Part shown: one piece after another, positions 3,338 to 17,291 of the stretch
How positions within the stretch are numbered: position 1 is the stretch's first letter
How the letters are laid out: each line of letters starts with the position of its first letter
Assembly: GCA_018883785.1 (NCBI GenBank)
Contig: JAHLFO010000066.1
Span: 1-35,217 of the forward strand
Length of the DNA: 35,217 nucleotides
Source: Candidatus Bacteroides intestinipullorum
GTDB lineage: Bacteria > Bacteroidota > Bacteroidia > Bacteroidales > Bacteroidaceae
Reading direction: 5' to 3'
Notes under the pieces: generated by a model
Databases searched by the model: none
Told to the model about the DNA's origin: nothing
Seen by the model: the letters and a program-made list of their open reading frames with translations, nothing else
Translations under genes and position numbers: made by a program

Positions 3338-3403
3338 AAAGAGGTGGCACCTTTTTCATAAAGAGGTGGCACCTTTTCTATAAAGAGGTGGCACCTTTTC
3401 TAT
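3338..3403. repeat. Tandem array: 3 copies of a 22-bp unit AAAGAGGTGGCACCTTTTCTAT with an imperfect odd palindrome core
   Basis: AAAGAGGTGGCACCTTT starts at 3338, 3360 and 3382, a period of exactly 22. It lies between convergent genes. Confidence 0.95.
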
Positions 3404-5568: not shown

Positions 5569-7560
5569 TTACAACGGGATATATTCCACAAACGCCTCCA
5601 TAGCTTCGTAGGATGCCAATCCCAGCTGGTCGTAGAGGTTGGCCGTGGCGCGGTTGCGGTCTTCGCTGCGTTGCCAGAAGAGTCGTTCGTCGTTGCCCAG
5701 GAAGGGTGCGCTCTCCATCTGGCTCTGGTGCTTCAGGATGGCGTTGCGCTTGGCTCGGAGTTCTTCGGGGCTGATGGGAACGGCCATCTCGATGTTCTCG
5801 ATTTCCCATTCGGCCCAGGCGCCGCGGTACATCCAGATGCGGCAATCCTTCAGCCACTCGGCGCCGGCTTCCTTCTCCAAGTCGATGGCGGCAAAGACGC
5901 CGTCCGTGCAGACACGGTGCGTGCCGTGCGGGTCGGCCAGGTCGCCGGCCACGAAGATCTGGTGGGGCTGGATTTCGCGGAGCAGGTTGCGGATGATTTC
6001 CACGTCGGCCTCGCTGATGGGGTTCTTCTGGATGCGGCCCGTCTCATAGAAGGGCAGGTCGAGGAAGTGGCAGTGGTCCAGCGGGATATTGTTGTACGTG
6101 CAGGCCGTGCGTGCCTCGCCACGGCGGATGAGGCCCTTGATGGTGAGCACGTCGCGTGTGTCGATGTCGCCGTCTTTCTTCTCGCGGAGGAATTGGCGGA
6201 TTTCCTTATACTTCTCGTTGATGACCTGGTCGCCGCTGTTGTTGAACAACTGGTTGAAGCCATTGATGAAGTGGAGGAAGCGTACCACCTCTTCGTCGCC
6301 CACGGCAATGTTGCCCGAGGTCTCGTAGGCTACGTGCACATCGTGCTTCTGCTCTACCAGTCGGCGGATGGTGCCGCCCATGGAGATGACATCATCATCC
6401 GGGTGCGGGGAGAAGACGATGACGCGCTTCGGATAGGGGTTGGCGCGCTCGGGACGGTAGGTGTCATCGGCATTGGGTTTGCCGCCCGGCCATCCGGTGA
6501 TGGTGTGTTGCAGGTCGTTGAATATCTTGATGTTCACATTGTAGGCCGAACCGTAGAGGGCCAGCAGTTCGCTCAGGCCGTGGTCGTTATAGTCCTTGTT
6601 CGTCAGTTTCAGGATGGGTTTGCCGGTCAGCTGGCAGAGCCATACGATGGCGCTGCGGATGAGCTTGTCGGTCCATTCGCACGAAGTCACCAGCCAGGGG
6701 TGCTGGATGCGGGTCAGATTGGAAGCAGAAGAGAGGTCGAGGACGACGTGCGTGTTGTTATGCGTCTGGAGGAAGGAGGCGGGGATGGCGTCGGTGACGG
6801 GGCCTTCGACGCAGTCCTTGATGCGGGCGGCTTTTTCCTCGCCCCAGGCAATCAGGTACACCTTCTTGGCGGCCAGGATGGTGGAGACGCCCATGGTGAT
6901 GGCGCTGATGGGCGTGTTGTCCAGCGTGCCGAACATCTTGACGGCTTCGTTGCGCGAGGTGCCGTCCATCAGGATGAGGCGGGTGGTGGAGTTGAGGCGC
7001 GAGCCGGGTTCGTTGAAGCCGATGTTGCCCACGCGGCCGATGCCCAGCAGTGCGAAGTCTATCCCGCCGAAGCTCTCGATGCGCTGCTCGTAGAGGCGGC
7101 AATACTCGAAGATGGTGTCCTTCGGGATGGTGCCGCTGGGGCTGAAGATGTTTTGCGGGTCGATGTCCACGTGGTTCAGCAGCATCTCCTTCAGCGAGTT
7201 GAGGTTGCTGGTCACGGCATCGGGCGACAAGGGATAGTATTCGTAGAGGTTGAAGATGATGACGTTGCGGAAGCTCAGTCCCTCCTCCTGGTGCATGCGG
7301 ACGAGGGCGGCGTAGACATTGCGGGGAGAGTTGCCACCGGCCAAGGCCAGCACGCAGAAGCGTCCGGCTTTTTGCTTCTCGCGGATGAGCTGGGCGATTT
7401 CCAAGGCGATATGGCTCGCGCCCTCTTCGGCGGTTTCATAGATGTCCGTAGGAATCTTCTCCAGGCGGGTGAGCACGGAACGCTCGAAAGCATTCTCCGG
7501 CCGGTAGTACCGGGTCGATACGCGGTTGAGCGTAATCTGGGAGCTTAAGTTGGTTTTCAT
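5569..7560 (-). CDS. NagB-like (glucosamine-6-phosphate deaminase fold) domain fused to PIG-L/LmbE-family deacetylase domain, 663 aa
   Basis: Start set at the ATG complementary to 7558-7560 (MKTNLSSQITLNRV). N-terminal NagB-like motifs (LALAGGNSP, FNLYEYYPL, GIGRVGNIGFNEPGS); C-terminal PIG-L motif VFSPHPDDDVISMGGT and DPHGTHRVCTD. Confidence 0.92.
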   Translation of the reverse strand: MKTNLSSQITLNRVSTRYYRPENAFERSVLTRLEKIPTDIYETAEEGASHIALEIAQLIREKQKAGRFCVLALAGGNSPRNVYAALVRMHQEEGLSFRNVIIFNLYEYYPLSPDAVTSNLNSLKEMLLNHVDIDPQNIFSPSGTIPKDTIFEYCRLYEQRIESFGGIDFALLGIGRVGNIGFNEPGSRLNSTTRLILMDGTSRNEAVKMFGTLDNTPISAITMGVSTILAAKKVYLIAWGEEKAARIKDCVEGPVTDAIPASFLQTHNNTHVVLDLSSASNLTRIQHPWLVTSCEWTDKLIRSAIVWLCQLTGKPILKLTNKDYNDHGLSELLALYGSAYNVNIKIFNDLQHTITGWPGGKPNADDTYRPERANPYPKRVIVFSPHPDDDVISMGGTIRRLVEQKHDVHVAYETSGNIAVGDEEVVRFLHFINGFNQLFNNSGDQVINEKYKEIRQFLREKKDGDIDTRDVLTIKGLIRRGEARTACTYNNIPLDHCHFLDLPFYETGRIQKNPISEADVEIIRNLLREIQPHQIFVAGDLADPHGTHRVCTDGVFAAIDLEKEAGAEWLKDCRIWMYRGAWAEWEIENIEMAVPISPEELRAKRNAILKHQSQMESAPFLGNDERLFWQRSEDRNRATANLYDQLGLASYEAMEAFVEYIPL

Positions 7561-7692: not shown

Positions 7693-7755
7693 GGGCTTGT
7701 GCGGGTTGGCATACGGACTTGTGCGGGTTGGGAGCCGGACTTGTGCCGGTTGGGA
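7693..7755. repeat. Tandem array: 3 copies with 22-bp period, core CTTGTGC(G/C)GGTTGG
   Basis: Core copies start at 7696, 7718 and 7740. Non-palindromic direct repeats. Confidence 0.85.
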
Positions 7756-7771: not shown

Positions 7772-7888
7772 AACCAATGCCATTGATTGGGAGGAATCAA
7801 TGCCATTGATTGGGGGGAATCAATGCCATTGATTGGGGGTAATCAATGCCATTGATTGTAGGGACCAATGCCATTGGTTCCTGGTTGG
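7772..7888. repeat. Tandem array: 5 copies of odd palindrome AATCAATG-C-CATTGATT, period 23/23/23/22
   Basis: CAATGCCATTG starts at 7775, 7798, 7821, 7844 and 7866, with G-rich spacers. The last copy is ACCAATG-C-CATTGGT, with paired changes in both arms. Confidence 0.95.
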
Positions 7889-7935: not shown

Positions 7936-10272
7936 CTACTCGGCGATGCTGAAGGCTACGGAGGCCGTGCGGCCTTCCCCGTCTACGACCGTGAGTGTGT
8001 GGGGGCCGGGGGAGGGTTGCAGGGGGATTTCGTGGAAGTCGCGGGTCGTGCCCAGATAGTCCTGGTCGAGGTGCCAGTAGAGGGTGACGTCGGTTTGTCC
8101 GTGGGCCACGCGGGCGACGAGGCGTCCCGGCGTGCCGTCCAGTTGGCGGGGCAGGGTGATGCGTGCCCCGGGGGTGGGGTAGATGAACTGCATGGGTTGG
8201 AACGCATCTTCGCCGCATCCGGCTTTGAAGGGGGGCAGGGGGCGGTATTCGGGATGATGCTGCCTGTAGTACCATTCCCAGACGGGCGGCAGGACAAACC
8301 AACTGGATTGCCGCGTAGGCTCGCTGTCGGCGCATTCCTGATGGACGCGGCGGGTGCCGTCGGCGGTGAGGACGACGGGATGGTGGTACGGGCAGGGGGC
8401 GGTGCGCTGCCCGGCAGGCAAGATGAGCAAGGTATCTGTCTCCGTGCAGAAGCGGCTTTTCAGGTGTCCGGAGAGGTGGCAAACCTCTGCATCGACGAAT
8501 ACGCCGTCGGGGCGAACGAACCATGCTGGTGCAGCAGGCAGGAGACTCAGCACATCGAACAGGACGGGACCGGCCGTGCGTGCGCCTACCAAGCCGGGCT
8601 TGCCCTCGCCCGAAGCGTTGCCCACCCATACGCCGACGGCGTAGCGGGGCGTGACGCCCACCGCCCAGGCATCGCGGAAGCCGTAGCTGGTGCCGGTCTT
8701 CCAGGCCACGGGGTGCATGGAGGGGATGGACCGCCAGTCGATTTCCTCTGGGCGGTTGACTTCGGTGAGGGCTTCGAACACCTGCCAGGTGCCTCCGGGG
8801 CGGAAGAAGTCTGCCTTGGGGGCGGATGCAGCTTCCCCGGATGCGACGAGGGTGCACGGAGCTTGGGGCAGGTTCAGCAAGCTGCGCCCCATGCGGGCGT
8901 AGGCCGAAGTGACGTCCCACAAGGTAGCTTCCGCTCCGCCCAGGATGAGCGAGAGCCCGTAGTGCGAGGGAGGGCGGTTGAGGGTGGTTAGTCCGGCTTG
9001 CCGCAAGAGTTCGTGGAACTTGGGCACGCCGTATTGTTGCAGGAGGTGTACGGCGGGGATGTTCAGCGAGCGGGCCAGTGCTTCCGAGGCGGGGACGGCT
9101 CCTTCGAACTGCCGGCTGAAATTCTGCGGGGCAAATCCATTGATGTTGACAGGTATGTCCGGCAGCAGGGTGTGGGGCAAGATCAGTCCTTCTTCCAGGG
9201 CTGCATAGTAGAGGAAGGGCTTCAGGATGCTGCCTGTGCTGCGCGGTGCGCGGATGATGTCTACCTGGCTGCCATCTGCCGATGCGTCGGAGCCGGTGTT
9301 TCCACAATAAGCTACGACCCGGTTGGCGGGCAGGTCGATGACCAGGAGGGCCAGGTGGCGTATGTCGCTTCGGGCAAATTCCCGGCTATGTCGTTCGGCC
9401 AGGGCCTCCAACTGTAGTTGCAGTTCCTTGTCGAGGGTGGAGGTGATGGTCTGGCCGGGATGCTCGGAGGCCAGGCGGTCCACCAGGTGGGGCGCGATGC
9501 GGGGAAGGGGAAGCGGGGCATCCGGCAAAGGTTCGTCCAGGGCCAGGGCGTAGTCCGATGGGCTGAGGTCGCCTTGCTCCCGGAGGAGTTGCAACACCCG
9601 GTTCCGCTTGCGCAACAAGGCTTCGCGTCCCTTGCCGGGATGTATGGCTGAAGGCGCGTTGGGGAGTACGGCCAAGGTGGCGGCTTCTGCCCAGGAAAGT
9701 TCGGAGGAGGGATGGGCAAAGTACCGCCAAGCCGCCGCGTCCAATCCCACGACATTGCCTCCAAAGGGGGCATGCGAGGCATAGAGGGCCAGGATTTCGT
9801 CCTTGGAGCAGCGCAGCTCCAGGCGGGTGGCCAGTATCATTTCCACCAGTTTCTCGGTGAAGGTCCGCGGACGGTTCCGTGAGATGCGGATGGTCTGCAT
9901 GGTCAGTGTGCTTCCTCCGCTGACAATCCTTCCTTGTCGGATGTTTTGCCAGGCCGCGCGGGCTATGGAGAGGGGGTTGACGCCGGGATGGTGATAGAAA
10001 TGCCGGTCCTCGAACGCCAGCAGGCAACGGACGAATTTCCAGGGCACGGTGTCGCACGGCGGGAAGCGCCATTGGCCATCACGGGCGATGCGTGCCCCCA
10101 GCAATTCGCCGTGGCGGTCCGTCACCACCGTGGCGTATGGAACGCGGAACAAGTCGCGGGGCAGGCAACAGGCATACGCCAACAGCAAGCCTGCGACACA
10201 GAGTAACCCGGCCTTCCGCCAGGGGGAAAGCCGGGTTAAACCTATTATTATTGTATGTCCCCACTTCGTCAT
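7936..10272 (-). CDS. pbpC: Penicillin-binding protein 1C (transglycosylase, transpeptidase, BiPBP_C domain)
   Basis: FEDRHFYHHPGVNPLSIARAAWQN and SGGSTLTMQTIRI (GT51); STGSILKPFLY and AWKTGTSYGFRDAW (transpeptidase); C-terminal IYPTPGARITLP region. Downstream of an alpha-2-macroglobulin gene with ATGA overlap. Confidence 0.95.
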   Translation of the reverse strand: MTKWGHTIIIGLTRLSPWRKAGLLCVAGLLLAYACCLPRDLFRVPYATVVTDRHGELLGARIARDGQWRFPPCDTVPWKFVRCLLAFEDRHFYHHPGVNPLSIARAAWQNIRQGRIVSGGSTLTMQTIRISRNRPRTFTEKLVEMILATRLELRCSKDEILALYASHAPFGGNVVGLDAAAWRYFAHPSSELSWAEAATLAVLPNAPSAIHPGKGREALLRKRNRVLQLLREQGDLSPSDYALALDEPLPDAPLPLPRIAPHLVDRLASEHPGQTITSTLDKELQLQLEALAERHSREFARSDIRHLALLVIDLPANRVVAYCGNTGSDASADGSQVDIIRAPRSTGSILKPFLYYAALEEGLILPHTLLPDIPVNINGFAPQNFSRQFEGAVPASEALARSLNIPAVHLLQQYGVPKFHELLRQAGLTTLNRPPSHYGLSLILGGAEATLWDVTSAYARMGRSLLNLPQAPCTLVASGEAASAPKADFFRPGGTWQVFEALTEVNRPEEIDWRSIPSMHPVAWKTGTSYGFRDAWAVGVTPRYAVGVWVGNASGEGKPGLVGARTAGPVLFDVLSLLPAAPAWFVRPDGVFVDAEVCHLSGHLKSRFCTETDTLLILPAGQRTAPCPYHHPVVLTADGTRRVHQECADSEPTRQSSWFVLPPVWEWYYRQHHPEYRPLPPFKAGCGEDAFQPMQFIYPTPGARITLPRQLDGTPGRLVARVAHGQTDVTLYWHLDQDYLGTTRDFHEIPLQPSPGPHTLTVVDGEGRTASVAFSIAE

Positions 10273-17177: not shown

Positions 17178-17291
17178 GTTAATGGTCAATGGTTAATGGT
17201 TAAGGTTAATGGTTAATGGCTGGTGGTTAGTGATAAGGCTTGCTGGTCGCTTGCCGCTGATTATTAACCATTAATCATTAACCATTAATAA
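17178..17291. repeat. GGTTAAT-type short repeats with an inverted block (imperfect inverted repeat)
   Basis: Left block GTTAATGGTCAATGGTTAATGGTTAAGGTTAATGGTTAATGG; right block ATTATTAACCATTAATCATTAACCATTAATAATCA is near-complementary. Confidence 0.8.

Follow-up and report, generated by a model that had tools for sequence, protein, structure and literature searches.

The REP/BIME and REPIN elements, with their RAYT transposases, are short intergenic palindromes that occur many times per genome and are often clustered. The arrays described here resemble them in palindrome length, intergenic location, high copy number within a genome and frequent clustering, but differ in that no Y1 transposase matches were found (in three incomplete drafts), in that their AT-rich units run head-to-tail at 22-23 bp, and in that several sequence families occur within one genome.

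The nearest published case is BrickBuilt of Porphyromonas gingivalis, an intergenic 23-nt tandem minisatellite located within a MITE and built from the unit AGAYCATARTATCCTCTCRTRTG (PMC4596501). BrickBuilt displays dyad symmetry, predicted long stem-loops, a strain-variable number of units and only a few bases between units, and it is bounded by a leader and a tail, both fixed, whose ends are IS5-family-like; it forms one sequence family in one species (PMC4596501). The Bacteroides arrays share with it the bacterial order, the period of 22-23, the intergenic site and the dyad habit, but its unit is unrelated to any examined here. The array that is the subject of this study has neither leader and tail nor terminal inverted repeats, and where seven arrays of another Bacteroides genome do lie in an element, its ends differ from those of BrickBuilt (PMC4596501). 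The Bacteroides class, moreover, comprises many palindromes within one architecture genus-wide, swapped for each other at the same gap, in contrast to BrickBuilt (PMC4596501), of which these arrays are not members.

Template switching at quasipalindromes is known to homogenise the arms of inverted repeats and to invert their centre (PMC8604942, PMC7202029), and the covarying arms and G/C-only centres reported below are similar to these outcomes. The process is described as a mechanism of mutation, and not as one that generates a class of periodic repeats throughout a genus (PMC7202029, PMC8604942). No description of this Bacteroides array class was found in the open-access literature searched; subscription journals lay mostly outside this search and may hold an earlier report. 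The dyad arrays have a common architecture, are spread over several species, persist at orthologous gaps, gain and lose units, and covary between their arms.

The array at the pbpC-nagB gap

The window, meaning the whole stretch of 35,217 nucleotides from Candidatus Bacteroides intestinipullorum, bears five odd dyads in the gap that separates a pbpC-type gene from a nagB/PIG-L gene, with successive steps of 23, 23, 23 and 22 bp. Its features are as follows.

7772..7788: dyad unit 1, AACCAATG-C-CATTGATT, one arm altered (pattern search and sequence)
7795..7811: dyad unit 2, AATCAATG-C-CATTGATT, perfect 8+1+8 dyad (pattern search)
7818..7834: dyad unit 3, AATCAATG-C-CATTGATT, perfect 8+1+8 dyad (pattern search)
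7841..7857: dyad unit 4, AATCAATG-C-CATTGATT, perfect 8+1+8 dyad (pattern search)
7863..7879: dyad unit 5, (G)ACCAATG-C-CATTGGT(T), both arms altered (pattern search)
7936..10272, minus strand: upstream gene, pbpC-type penicillin-binding protein with Transgly, Transpeptidase and BiPBP_C domains (Pfam)
5569..7560, minus strand: downstream gene, nagB-like, with Glucosamine_iso and PIG-L domains (Pfam)
7696..7755: adjoining tandem repeat, period 22 bp, 2.7 copies of CTTGTGCGGGTTGGGAGACGGA, unlike the array units
3338-3403: related array, three AGAGGTG-G-CACCTTT units spaced by 22 bp, lying in a convergent gap; orthologous arrays L067, L117 and L129
34946-35008: related array, three AAAGGTG-S-CACCTTT units at a 22 bp step; orthologous array L118

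A search with AATCAATGNCATTGATT allowing up to three mismatches yields exactly five matches in the window against 0.09 expected, and none of 100 shuffles reaches five. The five-copy arm-C-arm array of period 23, 23, 23 and 22 reported in a preliminary description of this DNA is thus real, with its starts (given as 7775, 7798, 7821, 7844 and 7866) placed three bases late; the 17-mers start at 7772, 7795, 7818, 7841 and 7863. Inspection of the sequence bears out the change to both arms of the last copy and the G-rich spacers between dyads, and Pfam agrees with the proposed pbpC and nagB-like context, both genes lying on the minus strand. The nagB-like gene probably starts at 7560, from an ATG outside the array. 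The spacers, being 5-6 bp long and of low complexity, are not the unique, repeat-length spacers of a CRISPR array, which is ruled out.

Related arrays in the genome and across the genus

The genome of origin (G000) contains approximately 17 such arrays, the window array among them, and 74 distinct arrays were examined overall. Exact AATCAATGNCATTGATT occurs 21 times on nine contigs of this genome, compared to no occurrence of a reversed control pattern, while AAAGGTGSCACCTTT and its near forms make up additional arrays. The AGAGGTG-G-CACCTTT array at 3338-3403 is of the AAAGGTG-C-CACCTTT kind with one arm altered. The two main half-sites, AATCAATG and AAAGGTG, have a common frame and co-occur in single arrays at the 22-bp step (L009, L011, L014 to L017), and hybrid units combine one half-site of each kind (AAAGGTG-S-CACTGATT). 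Since they are found in the same arrays, the two palindromes noted in the preliminary description belong to one system.

Other genomes were scanned with the palindrome pattern, as suggested in the preliminary description, and the 31 named stretches with matches all come from Bacteroides or Mediterranea MAGs, several of them from poultry. Among 160 genomes belonging to the window's genus, 8 have the AAAGGTG tandem. Genus-level counts come from sampled stretches, namely a blind sample of 1.08 Mb from eight Bacteroides species picked regardless of repeats. This sample holds 35 arrays of period 21-23 (32 per Mb), 30 of which are intergenic though 88% of the DNA was called coding by a crude gene caller. 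When this DNA was scanned again, 42 arrays of period 21-23 were obtained, with significant dyads in 19 when compared with shuffles of unit columns. Within gaps, excess identity at lag 22 is the top lag in four of the eight species, with harmonics in the strongest. No array of at least 2.3 copies and period 21-23 was found in 339 kb sampled from other families of the order (16 genomes), or in 50 kb of E. coli. Viral contigs gave no exact tandem match, and a viral origin is unsupported.

Unit anatomy and arm covariation

A unit consists of a dyad of about 17 bp (arms of 6-8 bp and a centre of 1-5 bases) and a spacer of 5-6 bp, amounting to 22-23 bp, and the steps between units are 22 (161) or 23 (42), rarely 21 or 24. 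Across arrays the spacers frequently contain TAG/CTA, a feature compared with the GTAG foot of REP elements, and GGGG/CCCC, ATG, CAT and others are present too. Over 280 units from 74 distinct arrays, pairing between the arms reaches 75-90% at positions 3-6 and 8 against 42-51% expected, with no excess beyond position 9, while the TG-S-CA core scarcely varies and position 7 is almost always an A/T pair. Pair 8 is matched in 84 of 89 units of the ATCA type, where permutations average 54 and reach 66 at most, and in 52 of 97 of the AAAGGTG type, where they average 33 and reach 47, permutation figures that overstate significance because these counts take units as independent and many are related by descent. 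With no restriction set on the centre base, 245 TG-N-CA units carry 142 G, 103 C and no A or T, and both G and C centres are present within 16 of 73 arrays. Symmetry is not absolute: about one unit in ten pairs unlike half-sites, as in AAAGGTG-S-CACTGATT, and many others bear one-sided mismatches (e.g., AATCATTG-G-CATTGATT).

These near-fixed positions amount to the symmetric motif A-N4-TG-S-CA-N4-T with a G:C centre in either orientation, as might be seen if the units were tandem sites for a putative symmetric (dimeric) DNA-binding protein, spaced about two helical turns apart and acting in nucleoid organisation or regulation of neighbouring genes, with selection keeping the dyads. The 22-23 bp step would place such sites nearly on one face of the helix. 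A protein of this kind accounts for the core and centre but not for covarying arms of free sequence: covariation links arms as dissimilar as AAAG and TCAA, for which a sequence-reading dimer has no need. We rate this explanation as somewhat unlikely.

The alternative that the units are RNA hairpins of untranslated regions, functioning as terminators, processing barriers or mRNA stabilisers, appears distinctly improbable. The RNA fold of the window array is far better than that of its shuffles (z -5.1), and arrays of tandem gaps lie closer to the upstream stop (median 49 bp) than to the downstream start (92 bp). However, the DNA fold is equally extreme (z -6.1), and arrays occupy tandem, convergent and divergent gaps (33, 14 and 8), a distribution not significantly different from that of gaps without arrays (p 0.21). 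Units of the AATCAATG type have AT-rich arms and no T-run, and context is not distinct, unlike an intrinsic terminator, which is a G+C-rich hairpin with a T-run placed after genes. Wobble-type mismatches number 22 for sense and 19 for antisense RNA, without strand preference. The single altered arm of copy 1 (AACCAATG-C-CATTGATT) was correctly noted, but its proposed pairing in minus-strand RNA is unsupported because wobbles are unbiased, and a centre that is only G or C on either strand denotes the symmetry of double-stranded DNA and not an RNA loop. No known structured RNA was recognised in Rfam 15, where the best match scored 33 bits and the gathering score is 197. The fold of the window array hinted that first and last units pair and so close the entire array, but when all arrays are taken together such pairing shows weakly at offsets 4-8 and disappears at 9-12; this idea was rejected.

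Arrays at orthologous gaps

The pbpC-nagB gap holds five units in the genome of origin and four each in Candidatus Bacteroides pullicola (G015), Candidatus Bacteroides merdigallinarum (G067) and G160. Pair 8 is A-T in the genome of origin and in most G160 units, and C-G in most G067 units and half of those of G015; the centre is C in all five units of the window array and G in the other three genomes. The comparison of arms and copy number at this gap, as proposed in the preliminary description, thus shows pair 8 switched and four units against five in three other species; one-arm changes between species are seen as well.

More extensive replacement is found at other gaps. The L034 gap contains AAAGGT units in G000 and hybrid units in G162, all at 22 bp, while G015 and G067 have the unrelated palindrome AAAAAG-S-CTTTTT at 22 bp, in many copies of which CTTATT replaces one arm. 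At the L009 gap, the G160 units, spaced by 23 bp, are ATCTACG...CGTAGAT and ATGTACG...CGTACAT, which differ from each other in both arms, and at the L018/L040 gap AATCAATG units stand opposite ATCATCGTACATGAT units. The close orthologues L067 and L117 differ by one-arm changes and by exactly one unit lost or gained. The 22-23 bp step and the symmetry are retained at the same gaps despite changed letters. The earlier phrase that symmetry is kept while sequence drifts is apt across species, given the covarying arms of orthologous-gap arrays, but too strict for individual units, in view of hybrids and one-sided mismatches.

Most orthologue pairs involve loci fetched for holding arrays; approximately seven sites were chosen otherwise, and five of these keep an array, compared to 30 arrays in 369 gaps (P ~6e-5, a post hoc and approximate figure). 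Two gaps lack an array in another species (L012/L072 and L013/L063), and no clean empty site with target duplication was definable at either, the flanks being too diverged. Such persistence at orthologous gaps suits sites of a symmetric DNA-binding protein under selection, but at some gaps the entire palindrome, core included, is replaced, and the unrelated palindromes of other species also argue against such a protein.

Possible relation to mobile DNA

The dispersed and intergenic palindromes would also suit mobile DNA, either REP/BIME-like elements that a RAYT (Y1) transposase mobilises or parts of MITEs. Seven arrays of G015 belong to an element of 205-252 bp bounded on either side by the terminal inverted repeats TAAGTAG...CTACTTA, and further arrays have one recognisable end of the TAAGTAG/CTACTTA type. 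MITE-like element loci in this genome include L050, L063, L064, L066, L068 and L073. Of the usual MITE features, terminal inverted repeats and target-site duplication, neither is present at the window array, and some G015 arrays display them in part, with TA at their ends. Arrays can thus sit in a MITE; the window array does not. As a general account, however, mobility is highly improbable: Y1_Tnp matches are absent from the genome of origin, G015 and G002 (drafts 84, 84 and 63% complete), the TAAGTAG...CTACTTA flanks are lacking from the window array and most others, and arrays hold orthologous positions in species without MITE ends.

Close to the contig ends of two species, one and the same non-array sequence adjoins dyad arrays (L041:445-535 and L113:1-135), as if a mobile element inserted into these palindromes.

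Template switching as a possible origin

The window array may represent one locus of a Bacteroides intergenic minisatellite class whose hairpin-forming dyad units owe their multiplication to slippage and their renewed symmetry to template switching, an account that we consider to have an even chance of being correct, and one weighed above the symmetric DNA-binding protein. Copy number would shift through replication slippage between units, and intrastrand template switching in hairpins during replication would restore arm symmetry (quasipalindrome correction) by copying one arm onto the other, with the capacity to invert the centre. Such a process would act on DNA and not on RNA, and any effects on neighbouring genes would be secondary. 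The centre, only G or C and with both in 16 of the 73 arrays, is as centre inversion predicts, and L017, where hybrid AAAGGTG-S-CACTGATT units lie beside homogenised AATCAGTG-G-CACTGATT, is as arm copying predicts. The account also draws on the covarying arms, on the one-arm and single-unit differences between L067 and L117, and on the exchange of palindromes at gaps where the step is unchanged. Between very close genomes no two-arm change was caught, and arm correction in a single step is thus an inference.

Template switching accounts for homogenised arms and for a centre flipping only between G and C, and leaves unexplained the near-fixed TG-S-CA core and the A/T pair at position 7, as well as the 22-23 bp step whatever the sequence and the persistence of arrays at the same gaps. 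It is conceivable, though rather unlikely, that these are genus-wide intergenic tandem dyads on a fixed 22-bp ruler, selected for shape and spacing with the palindrome sequence left free, and read by a putative structure-specific DNA-binding factor. With two palindromes now joined into one system, the gaps of Bacteroides, a major gut genus, display a 22-bp dyad periodicity that is independent of sequence. If the symmetry is mutational, template switching has left a natural record in the arrays; selected symmetry would instead indicate a putative structure-reading factor, and both readings are testable in tractable Bacteroides.

Other repeats

The CTTGTGCGGGTTGGGAGACGGA repeat at 7696-7755 lies 16 bases from the window array and has the same 22-bp period, and in orthologues GGACTTG-type repeats occur on both flanks of the array, frequently 22 bp apart. 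A further palindrome family of the genome of origin, TTGGGAG-N5-CTCCCAA, forms four units at 22 bp (L006:748-830). Elsewhere in the window, heptamer tandem repeats of GTTAATG and inverted ATTAACC occupy positions 17178-17219 and 17263-17289, about 45 bp apart.
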